DNA of 64,000 nt from Pseudomonadota bacterium (GTDB lineage Bacteria > Pseudomonadota > Gammaproteobacteria > Eutrophobiales > Eutrophobiaceae), in the NCBI GenBank assembly GCA_013112535.1, contig JABFGI010000002.1, forward strand, positions 434,001 to 498,000, written 5' to 3'. Under the pieces are notes generated by a model. It saw only the letters and a list, made by a program, of their open reading frames with translations, searched no databases and was not told the DNA's origin. Of the stretch, positions 36,089 to 39,536 are shown in pieces. Made by a program: the position numbers and the translations under genes. How positions within the stretch are numbered: position 1 is the stretch's first letter; every line of letters begins with the position of its first letter.

Positions 36089-36201
36089 AATCTAATCTCT
36101 AATTAGCGACGGTTTGCTCCGTCAGGCACGAGAAAGGATATATCAATTTCGAAAAAACACAAAAAAATATTTCCTTGCGTTTAAAGAAAGCTAACGTTTT
36201 T

Positions 36202-37179
36202 TTAACTAATACCAAAAGCCATAATTGGCATTCCAGGAAAAACAACAGATGAATCAGAATGTCCCAGAACAATACCATCATTTATTGCACGAACAGTTTC
36301 TTGATGTTTACCAAAGGCGTTTACGACTTTGGCGAAAGGTTGTCCCTGATTAATCTCATCACCAGCTTTAGCAAGAAATCTTATGATGCCACTCTTGGAA
36401 CTATAGGGTTGGTCAGAATATTTAAATAATTTTCCCTTATACTTTTTTGAAACTGGGTATACAAAACGCTCTTTCAGGGGAGAAATCATTTTCAGGCTGG
36501 ATAAAATATTCCAGATCGCATTTAAACCTAGACTAACATTTTCTTCATTGATGACATAAGGTTCACCTAACTCCAATGTTAAGGCAGGAATATTATTTTC
36601 CAGTAAATTATGCGACAAAGAATCGTTCAATGTTTCATTTTCAAGTAATGAAACAAAACCTGTTTCTTTAGAAAATTTACGCGCAGTATCATAAATTTTC
36701 TTATCCATATTAGATGATCGTTTATCCAGAATAGTATAGGGAATCGATTGTTTCCAATCACTATGAAGGTCTAATACCAGATCAGGAGAAGTACTAATAA
36801 TTGTGCTGAAAATACGGTTGGCAATTCTCTCTCCAAGAGTACCGGATGGCTTTCCAGGAAATGAACGATTCAGATCCTCTCGGCTCATTGTGATCTTGCG
36901 AGAAGTCGTTTCCAGTCCTATTGGATTCATCAAAGGAAAAGCGTAAACAGAACCGCATAGCAAGTTGCTACGGATTTGTTTGAAAACTTCATGAATAATT
37001 GCCATGCCGACAACTTCATCACCATGTACACAAGCCGTCAACCATACGACAGGTCCTGTTTTTTCACTGGTTACAGACATCAATGGCAATCGTCGTATTG
37101 ATAAGTCAGAACCAGTCAAAATTTTCTTGAAAGAATATCGACTTTTTATCAATGGCGTAACACTGCTGTTAGTGTTCAC
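36202..37179 (-). CDS. succinylglutamate desuccinylase/aspartoacylase-family (M14-like) zinc deacylase
   Basis: 325 residues. The zinc ligands of the AstE/AspA group are clear: HGDE (His52, Glu55) and DLHSD (His139), with the substrate-binding SREDLNRSFPGKP (99-111) and a catalytic-type glutamate near 203-206 (TLELGE). After the catalytic domain the C-terminus (about 245-325) is a small beta-barrel similar to biotinyl/lipoyl-like domains (SGIIRFLAKAGDEINQGQPFAKV...). Family members remove an acyl group from an amino acid or small peptide. It starts 26 bases after the methyltransferase/ATP-grasp gene, so the two likely act on the same compound. This is not the arginine-catabolic astE: no ast genes are near. 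Confidence 0.85.
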   Translation of the reverse strand: MNTNSSVTPLIKSRYSFKKILTGSDLSIRRLPLMSVTSEKTGPVVWLTACVHGDEVVGMAIIHEVFKQIRSNLLCGSVYAFPLMNPIGLETTSRKITMSREDLNRSFPGKPSGTLGERIANRIFSTIISTSPDLVLDLHSDWKQSIPYTILDKRSSNMDKKIYDTARKFSKETGFVSLLENETLNDSLSHNLLENNIPALTLELGEPYVINEENVSLGLNAIWNILSSLKMISPLKERFVYPVSKKYKGKLFKYSDQPYSSKSGIIRFLAKAGDEINQGQPFAKVVNAFGKHQETVRAINDGIVLGHSDSSVVFPGMPIMAFGIS

Positions 37180-37205
37180 TTTTTATTGTTACTTATCTTT
37201 TATTA

Positions 37206-39182
37206 TCATGCACAGACAGCATAATCTTCTTGCATTTTATCCTTGCGTATTTTTCTACGTTCAACCGCAGCTTGTATAATCTTATCTAACAGTTCTGCAT
37301 AAGAGATATCTTTTAACTTTGCCATCTTGGCCAGGTGGCCATCCCAGCACCAACCCGGATTTGGGTTCACTTCCAGTAGTCTTGGTGTACCTTTATCATC
37401 GAGTCGCCAATCGAAACGTGCATAATCGCGACATTCAACCCGCTCAAACAATTTAAGACAGCTGGCCTGCAAAAATTGTTCTGTTGCATCATCGAGTTTT
37501 GCCGGTATAGATGTAATCTTCCAATAAGGCGAGTCAGGGTCCCATTTCGCTTCATAGCCACAAATTCTTGGGAAGCCTTCCGGCAAAACCGTGTAGTCTT
37601 CTTCTATAATGGGCAAGAACTCAACATTACCACTGGTATTAATATTACCGATAATTCCGACACTGATATCTTTACCAGTAAGAAATTGCTCAACCAATAT
37701 TGGACTTTCATAACCAAATTGTTGTCTGCTTTCGAGTATAGCTCTTTCCAATTCCATTACATTATAACAGACACAATTTCTAGTAATGCCAAAACTGGAA
37801 TCACCAAAGTTAGGTTTAATAATGACTGGAAATGGAATAGTAATATCAATAAATGTCGTGTCTTCCGGTTTTACGATATAGGCATTGGCAACAGGAATGT
37901 CCATTTCACCTGCCAATCCACGAATTAAAGATTTATCATAGCAATATGCCAGACATTGCGGGTTCCCGCCGGTGTATGAAATATCCATTGTCTCCAGCAT
38001 TGCAGGAACATGTAACTCATGATTCGCATTATTATTAAAGCCTTCATCACACAGATTAAATACCAGATCATAATCGCGTTTCCAGCGACCAAGATTCTTT
38101 AAAAAACTGTCGTGCTGATTAAAATATGTAAACGTGTAACCTTCAAGACTACCTAATGCCTGCTTGAGCTTATTTATCGTATAGTGATCATCTTCATCAA
38201 AAACAGCACCTGGTTTTACATTGTCATATTTATCCGGATCACCTAATAGCACGGCTATTTTAAGTTGCTCATTTGACTCAACAATATTGCCTGATTGAAT
38301 TTTTGGTTTATCAACAAGACTCATAACAATATTGCGTTTAGCCATCATACCCAGATCCTGTTTGCGACCTGAGTCTGGTATCATTGAATGCTTCTGTTCA
38401 ATGTTTTTGAAGCCATTCTGGCCAAGAAGGGAATATAGTTCATCGAGACTATACAATCGCTCGGCATAAAATTGATCAGCAATAACACCTTGTTTGACAT
38501 GTGTAATAACTTCACGAGAAATAAGACGTTCATCGTCAGATGAAAGCGAACGTTCGCGACATACAAAATAATTTTTGTCGATCCATTCCCAACTTCTTGG
38601 GGAAAATGTAGCACGCATATGATCGCCATCGGTAATATCAATTAACAATTTACCACTCGGTTTCAAAATACGACGAATCTCTTCAAGTACACTAATGTCA
38701 TCTTGTCTGGTTTCAAAGTAACCAAAACTGTTACCCAAAATCGTCACTACATCAAAGTAATCAGAAGGGAACGGTAACTTTCTTGCATCGCCTTCTTTAA
38801 AACTAACATGCAAACCTTCTTTTTTAGCTACAGTCCTGGCACGGTTGACAAGATAATGAGAACGATCCAAACCATGAACGTTCCAGTATCCCTGACGAGC
38901 CATTTCCAGCACATGCCTGCCTTGCCCACAACAAAGATCCAGAATAAAAGATTCTTTATCAACATCTAATAATCCTGAAAAGATCTCTACTTCGTGTTTG
39001 GTAATGTTTTCATCATTAACAACATCACCATCAGTACGCAGATAATTAGCATTAAAAATATGACGCCACCAGTCAGCTTTAACATAGCTTTCCAGATTTT
39101 CAATTGGCCCAAGGACATCTATAAGACGTTGATTATTAGTCTTACATTTACTTGTGTTTTCTCTCGTTTTTTTCATAGACAT
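37206..39182 (-). CDS. fusion of a SAM methyltransferase and a D-Ala-D-Ala-ligase-like ATP-grasp enzyme
   Basis: 658 residues in two parts. Residues about 60-290 are a class I methyltransferase: motif I LDLCCGQGRH (81-90), acidic end of beta-2 VHGLDRS, and FDVVTILGNSFGYF. Residues about 305-640 are an ATP-grasp ligase of the D-Ala-D-Ala type: IAVLLGDPDKYDN start, DLVFNLCDEG, PAMLETMDISYTGG, PVIIKPNFGDSSFGI, ILVEQFLTGKDISVGIIG and the metal-binding EVNPNPG (604-610). A soluble enzyme that methylates and then ligates an amino acid or peptide is the natural reading; the substrate is unknown. It heads a minus-strand run with the M14-like deacylase and serCAB. Confidence 0.85.
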   Translation of the reverse strand: MSMKKTRENTSKCKTNNQRLIDVLGPIENLESYVKADWWRHIFNANYLRTDGDVVNDENITKHEVEIFSGLLDVDKESFILDLCCGQGRHVLEMARQGYWNVHGLDRSHYLVNRARTVAKKEGLHVSFKEGDARKLPFPSDYFDVVTILGNSFGYFETRQDDISVLEEIRRILKPSGKLLIDITDGDHMRATFSPRSWEWIDKNYFVCRERSLSSDDERLISREVITHVKQGVIADQFYAERLYSLDELYSLLGQNGFKNIEQKHSMIPDSGRKQDLGMMAKRNIVMSLVDKPKIQSGNIVESNEQLKIAVLLGDPDKYDNVKPGAVFDEDDHYTINKLKQALGSLEGYTFTYFNQHDSFLKNLGRWKRDYDLVFNLCDEGFNNNANHELHVPAMLETMDISYTGGNPQCLAYCYDKSLIRGLAGEMDIPVANAYIVKPEDTTFIDITIPFPVIIKPNFGDSSFGITRNCVCYNVMELERAILESRQQFGYESPILVEQFLTGKDISVGIIGNINTSGNVEFLPIIEEDYTVLPEGFPRICGYEAKWDPDSPYWKITSIPAKLDDATEQFLQASCLKLFERVECRDYARFDWRLDDKGTPRLLEVNPNPGWCWDGHLAKMAKLKDISYAELLDKIIQAAVERRKIRKDKMQEDYAVCA

Positions 39183-39536
39183 TTAAACCCTTATGCTAAA
39201 TAACAAAAGTGTCTAACGTCCGTTCTGACAGGATGCCAAAGAATAATGGATTGGACAATCCACGTTGAGCTCGTAGTTAGTGTTTCGCAAGAACCATCAT
39301 GTTCTCAGCACCAGCCTTTAGCTGGTTTGAACGCGGATTTTAGTCCAAAATTTACTGTTGTCTATTATTTTTTTATAACACTTTAATGTTTAAAATATTA
39401 AACGGTTAGTATTTACTATTATTTTCTGCAAATGCCCAATTTCTTAAAGTATTGCTTATAAATTGTAGATGAAGTAATCTGCTGCATTGCAACATACCCC
39501 AATTTTTAACTAATTTTGAAAGGTCTCAGTGAAACC
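39183..39536. other. 354-bp divergent intergenic region with three adjacent hairpins
   Basis: Between the fusion gene (minus) and malate synthase (plus). Three perfect short hairpins lie within 80 bases: GGATTG-ga-CAATCC (39248-39261), AGAAC-catcat-GTTCT (39290-39305) and ACCAGC-cttta-GCTGGT (39310-39326). The right part (39360-39500) is very AT-rich and should hold the malate synthase promoter. No ORF and no riboswitch class that I recognise. Confidence 0.5.

Follow-up and report, generated by a model that had tools for sequence, protein, structure and literature searches.

A methyltransferase–ATP-grasp fusion family and a partner zinc amidohydrolase: a possible pathway to a methylated dipeptide-like amide

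Two neighbouring genes and their products

The window, a 64,000-nucleotide stretch of a gammaproteobacterial contig, carries two neighbouring minus-strand genes inserted between glcB and serC (Table 1). The first encodes a methyltransferase–ATP-grasp fusion, here called FUS, and the second an amidohydrolase, here called DEAC. The sequence-only reading had described a 658-residue protein that joins a methyltransferase to a D-Ala-D-Ala-ligase-type ATP-grasp domain, with a deacylase gene 26 bases later. The open reading frame, Pfam matches and fold model agree on the fusion, and both frames lie on the minus strand at that distance, a gap consistent with a single predicted transcript. The FUS frame is not a chance one, because about 50 relatives share 46–71% identity with it across the whole length.

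Table 1 Features of the FUS–DEAC locus
Feature	Coordinates	Strand	Basis
Ancestral glcB-serC spacer, serC side, with serC leader hairpin; one insertion edge	36091..36172	-	78-88% identity to congener spacers
DEAC, 325-aa AstE/AspA-type zinc amidohydrolase, GTG start	36202..37179	-	Pfam PF24827; invariant residues; nearest folds
FUS–DEAC gap, 26 bp	37180..37205	-	Coordinates
FUS, 658-aa methyltransferase–ATP-grasp fusion	37206..39182	-	ORF and translation; Pfam/NCBIfam domains; 51-row family alignment
D-Ala-D-Ala-ligase-fold ATP-grasp domain of FUS, residues 305-650	37233..38270	-	Fold match; residue mapping
Class I SAM methyltransferase domain of FUS, ~residues 24-290	38313..39113	-	Pfam Methyltransf_25, 11, 31; SAM motif
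Probable ancestral spacer remnant, glcB side; other insertion edge	39475..39495	+	Short match

The N-terminal half of FUS matches Methyltransf_25 (res. 80–177, E 2.9e-22), one of several Pfam methyltransferase families above cut-off, and displays the hallmarks of a class I SAM methyltransferase: a Rossmann fold, a glycine-rich SAM motif and an acidic residue after strand 2. In the family alignment, the SAM motif consists of DLCCGQGRH and GLDRS, with Asp82, Cys85, Gly86, Gly88 and Asp106 invariant. The C-terminal half matches Dala_Dala_lig_C in Pfam (res. 447–637, E 1.1e-25). The structure predicted for FUS (pLDDT 86) contains a complete Ddl-type ATP-grasp fold, best matched by 1ehi_A (Z 27.2, 310 aligned residues, rmsd 3.2).

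DEAC matches the Pfam family AstE_AspA_cat (E 1.1e-26) and has the features of the AstE/AspA superfamily, namely an HxxE...H zinc site, an N-R motif and a catalytic glutamate. The zinc ligands His52, Glu55 and His139, noted as intact from sequence, do not vary among 27 aligned relatives; the same holds for Asn104 and Glu203 and very nearly for Arg105. The predicted structure (pLDDT 91.5) has DoeB/EutE as near relatives in fold and the cyanophycin dipeptide hydrolase CphZ as a more distant one. DoeB is an N-acetyl-diaminobutyrate deacetylase, and both DoeB and CphZ split N-acyl amino acids or isodipeptides. DEAC has the fold, zinc ligands, N-R carboxylate motif and catalytic glutamate in common with these enzymes but is only ~20% identical to them and is set apart by its own conserved H-N/S-D-W motif. 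It scores 72.6 bits against a cut-off of 402.7 with the DoeB equivalog of ectoine catabolism and falls outside that family.

The ligase half compared with D-Ala-D-Ala ligases

The genome encodes a true Ddl (L002) elsewhere, in a murB-ddl-ftsQ cluster between murB-like and ftsQ-like genes, and we mapped FUS residues onto this protein. The residues that we take to bind ATP and Mg in E. coli Ddl (Lys97, Lys144, Lys215, Arg255, Asp257, Glu270 and Asn272, E. coli numbering) are kept in 52/52 FUS sequences. Among those that presumably bind D-Ala, Glu15 and His63 lack an equivalent in the FUS alignment, and Tyr216, Ser281 and Leu282 are swapped for Trp547, Gly615 and His616, respectively. The replacing residues are mostly invariant themselves; Trp547 is fixed across the family, as are Asp614 and Gly615 in a GWCWDG loop. 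The best curated D-Ala-D-Ala ligase model in NCBIfam gives FUS 118 bits against a cut-off of 243, and FUS lies far under every curated Ddl cut-off.

FUS thus shares the full fold and the ATP/Mg residues with Ddl and Van ligases but differs in the residues for both D-Ala molecules and in curated scores. The residue mapping and these scores rule out a D-Ala-D-Ala or vancomycin-type ligase, and the mapping shows a predicted substrate pocket unlike that of Ddl. Ddl-type ATP-grasp enzymes catalyze ATP-dependent carboxylate–amine ligation, and by analogy the ligase half of FUS should be a ligase of this kind acting on a different, fixed substrate. MysD, from the pathway to mycosporine-like amino acids, is likewise a Ddl-type ATP-grasp ligase that attaches an amino acid; no MysA/B/C-like genes were noticed in scans of FUS neighbours. 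Existing family models see in FUS no more than a methyltransferase of generic type or a weak D-Ala-D-Ala ligase, and its likely misnaming as Ddl bears on genome-based inference of cell-wall synthesis.

Spread, pairing and insertion site

A pattern-seeded scan of genome contigs recovered 52 further FUS loci (52–79% identity in the best segment) and one unrelated methyltransferase match (L058). The hosts, mostly uncultured sediment and water microbes, span many phyla: Gammaproteobacteria, Desulfobacterota, Planctomycetota, Verrucomicrobiota, Spirochaetota, Nitrospirota, Bacteroidota, Chloroflexota, one cyanobacterium and Lokiarchaeota. With 117 invariant positions over both domains in the 51-row alignment, FUS is a real, uncharacterised family, and our literature search found no description of a methyltransferase–ATP-grasp fusion. 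The two domains are nearly always fused. Rare stand-alone versions comprise two ATP-grasp homologues that lack the methyltransferase domain (L121:6849-7856 and L120:1389-2378), a useful natural comparison, and one methyltransferase (L129). Distribution is patchy at every level: FUS occurs in 1/12 genomes of the genus, 4/37 searched genomes of the family, 9/369 of the class Gammaproteobacteria (two of the nine ATP-grasp only) and 7/218 Desulfobacterota (one methyltransferase only). The FUS tree departs from the phyla, splitting Planctomycetota, Pseudomonadota, Thermodesulfobacteriota, Nitrospirota and Fidelibacterota each into separate groups, a pattern that would fit transfer and is no proof of it.

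At a subfamily threshold of E ≤ 1e-45, DEAC is present in 4/369 class genomes, and each of these four belongs to the seven that carry full FUS (Fisher P 4.6e-8); this sample includes the window's own genome, and with that genome removed all three remaining carriers fall among six full-FUS genomes of 368. In two of the four, FUS and DEAC lie on different contigs. DEAC is also present in 5/7 FUS-bearing Planctomycetota versus 0/235 others, a comparison of seven genomes not drawn at random with 235 of untested FUS status. Of 50 FUS genomes from the contig scan, 23 carry DEAC at E < 1e-60, beside FUS in six and unlinked in 17. The two genes are adjacent in the window and in the clade of L027, L030, L046, L049 and L054, nearly adjacent in L024 with one gene between, and convergent in L115, so that linkage is seen in at least four lineages that stand apart on the FUS tree. 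The mirror-tree correlation between FUS and DEAC (Mantel r 0.37) is uncorrected for species relatedness and was not used as proof. The intervening gene in L024 is peptidase-like (Pfam M42, E 7e-5, under cut-off) and has no solved relative.

The pairing of FUS and DEAC is not accidental. Two unrelated pathways whose genes are chance neighbours here would accord with the 17 of 23 two-gene genomes in which FUS and DEAC are unlinked, and with the lack of DEAC among 218 Desulfobacterota, six of which carry full FUS; strong co-occurrence, together with linkage in four or more separate lineages, makes this scarcely credible. The sequence-only reading had proposed a shared ligase/deacylase pathway, which would be unlikely if the domains were found only as separate genes and the deacylase without the ligase. 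The fusion proves widespread, stand-alone domains are rare, and we never saw DEAC in a genome known to lack FUS among 369 Gammaproteobacteria, 236 Planctomycetota and 218 Desulfobacterota. Co-occurrence even of unlinked genes, and their proximity in several lineages, support the proposal. Because DEAC occurs in these samples only alongside FUS, while many FUS genomes do without DEAC, DEAC depends on FUS and not vice versa, as expected for a turnover enzyme.

Comparison with congeners defines the insertion. Nine have a readable locus; none carries FUS–DEAC, and eight keep glcB and serC as divergent neighbours ~165–290 bp apart, while the ninth has other genes there. In the window, 57–83 bp of the ancestral spacer are left beside serC, and the glcB-side remnant matches several congeners at 75–100% identity over 11–40 bp, with weak E-values but at the same place each time. 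The module, inserted here into the glcB-serC spacer, is proposed to be mobile. A search of PLSDB for plasmid carriage gave no match, and FUS–DEAC show no compositional sign of transfer, their GC content being that of the window. The ninth congener (L078:6429-14717) holds gcvT, gcvH, gcvP and a gene for a 1249-aa redox protein at the glcB position between serC and pfkB, so the glcB–serC spot seems prone to exchange.

This insertion also accounts for the serine genes. As the earlier reading stated, serC, serA and serB follow on the same strand, with the serC start 113 bp away; its suggestion that serine or phosphoserine supply is linked to the pair does not survive. The serCAB adjacency is a product of the insertion site, because the cassette entered the glcB-serC spacer. 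The serine link is rejected by the empty sites of the congeners, serC keeps its own conserved leader, and no other FUS locus has window-like serC, serA or serB beside it. The leader itself (36089-36130, minus strand) is a nearly perfectly conserved element of ~35 nt with a hairpin (GACGGAGCAAACCGTC), immediately preceding serC both in the window and in eight congeners. It has no Rfam match and looks like a candidate RNA or protein-binding control site of serCAB. Upstream of FUS, an Rfam search for riboswitches in the window stretch and 30 FUS loci returned only tRNAs at gathering threshold; two low-threshold window matches are chance-like, and promoter and terminator matches are no more numerous than in shuffled sequence.

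Gene context and the proposed pathway

Neighbouring genes at FUS loci were called as the longest non-overlapping ORFs, a procedure that in a few places, L121 among them, let a wrong-strand ORF take the place of a real gene; for the loci on which the argument rests, the coordinates were verified. The commonest among 149 flanking proteins are AstE (8), CorA (6), CitMHS (4), MFS (4) and RimK (3). CorA occurs in 5/49 FUS loci versus 0.19 expected from genome-wide counts (P ~1.6e-6, indicative only, as the pattern prompted the test). MscS, located near FUS in L025 and L027, is weakly enriched (P 0.025). A KefC-type antiporter follows FUS in L014 and L020, and MgtE follows DEAC in L046. A cluster of CorA, MscS, RimK and a more distant AstE recurs in many of these genomes (L025, L121 and other contigs), including at sites remote from FUS. 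FUS adjoins members of this cluster in L006, L007, L022, L025, L026 and L048, and the stand-alone ATP-grasp homologue of L121 does likewise. Glutamate-modification genes, with RimK-type ligases among the cited enzymes, are commoner in brackish than in marine aquatic bacterial genomes (PMC10219603). Neighbours vary widely, and many loci are devoid of cation or osmotic genes.

We propose that FUS is a methylating amino-acid ligase and DEAC the hydrolase of its product, an overall model to which we give an even chance. The N-terminal domain of FUS would methylate the substrate or product with SAM as donor, most probably on an amine, and the C-terminal Ddl-fold domain would use ATP in coupling a carboxylate to an amino acid through the amino group of the latter, yielding a small methylated dipeptide-like amide. 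DEAC would hydrolyse the amide, or something closely derived from it, and so recycle the compound once it is no longer needed; such a job would make DEAC optional in the pathway. We infer the substrates, the methylation site, the direction of DEAC action and the physiological role. More than half of FUS genomes have no DEAC of this type, which speaks against the model. The most likely role, favored by gene context and advanced tentatively as the least certain step, is that of a solute kept inside the cell to maintain osmotic or cation balance, although record titles place some FUS organisms in groundwater or aquifers, where the need for an osmolyte is less obvious. That a single inter-domain pathway, from Gammaproteobacteria to Lokiarchaeota, uses FUS to make and DEAC to recycle a methylated dipeptide-like compatible solute or cation-balancing metabolite is possible but doubtful. 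As a defined pair of enzymes whose product class is open to test, FUS and DEAC would bring microbial metabolism a further amide-forming pathway and, perhaps, a new compatible solute.

A precedent for such a design exists in Ngg, which N-acetylates one glutamine and joins a second, leading to the osmolyte NAGGN (PMC8070244). On the proposed model, both systems have one protein that modifies an amino-acid amine and forms a peptide bond; a hydrolase accompanies it in each, and a MarR-type regulator lies beside the Pseudomonas genes as beside one FUS gene (L053). Ngg, however, is a GNAT-family protein that works with AsnO and a peptidase, whereas FUS has a Ddl-type ATP-grasp, no AsnO-like gene seen beside it and an AstE/AspA-type hydrolase. 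FUS contains a methyltransferase in place of the GNAT acetyltransferase domain and so falls outside the NAGGN system; the resemblance is of design only.

The main alternative to an intracellular solute is a secreted specialised metabolite, for instance a metal ligand that contains citrate or a polyamine and leaves the cell through an MFS pump, with DEAC trimming a precursor or protecting the producer. A tightly packed, overlapping operon in L030 (6668-14085) encodes citrate synthase, FUS, DEAC, a bifunctional glutathionylspermidine amidase/synthase and an MFS transporter, and is a candidate biosynthetic cluster. Citrate synthase also lies 10 bp after FUS in L023, an EmrB-type MFS gene overlaps FUS in L015, MFS genes occur in L027 and L035, and CitMHS adjoins FUS in Lokiarchaeota. 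At L030 and L015 the context points away from a solute and towards a product that is exported or linked to polyamines. Each partner type is nevertheless confined to few loci, many FUS genes lie by themselves or beside cation transporters, and the citrate synthases match the housekeeping equivalog, which leaves this reading rather unlikely.

The methyltransferase could also esterify the carboxylate as a temporary protecting group before ligation, the hydrolase then removing the methyl. Cryptic carboxyl methylation of this kind has a precedent in peptide assembly, where CysG methylates and the hydrolase CysE removes the group on the way to cystargolide (PMC11427300). DEAC, though, is a zinc amidohydrolase of the AspA/DoeB fold and no obvious esterase, and most FUS genomes are devoid of it, so we regard a protecting-group role as quite improbable. 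Very improbable, in turn, is a RimK-like FUS that acts on the end of a protein or peptide and makes no small metabolite: RimK and/or AstE lie near FUS in L006, L022, L025, L026 and L048 and near the ATP-grasp-only homologue in L121, but the ATP-grasp half of FUS is of the Ddl small-molecule type and no consistent protein partner is found beside it. Glutamate-modification genes, with RimK-type ligases among the cited enzymes, are commoner in brackish than in marine aquatic bacterial genomes (PMC10219603).

Genes for SET-domain proteins adjoin DEAC in two Spirochaetia (L110:6855-8581, with a Pfam SET match in L110, and L111:6991-8699), and small proteins judged SET-like by eye lie beside the stand-alone FUS-type methyltransferase (L129:622-2325).
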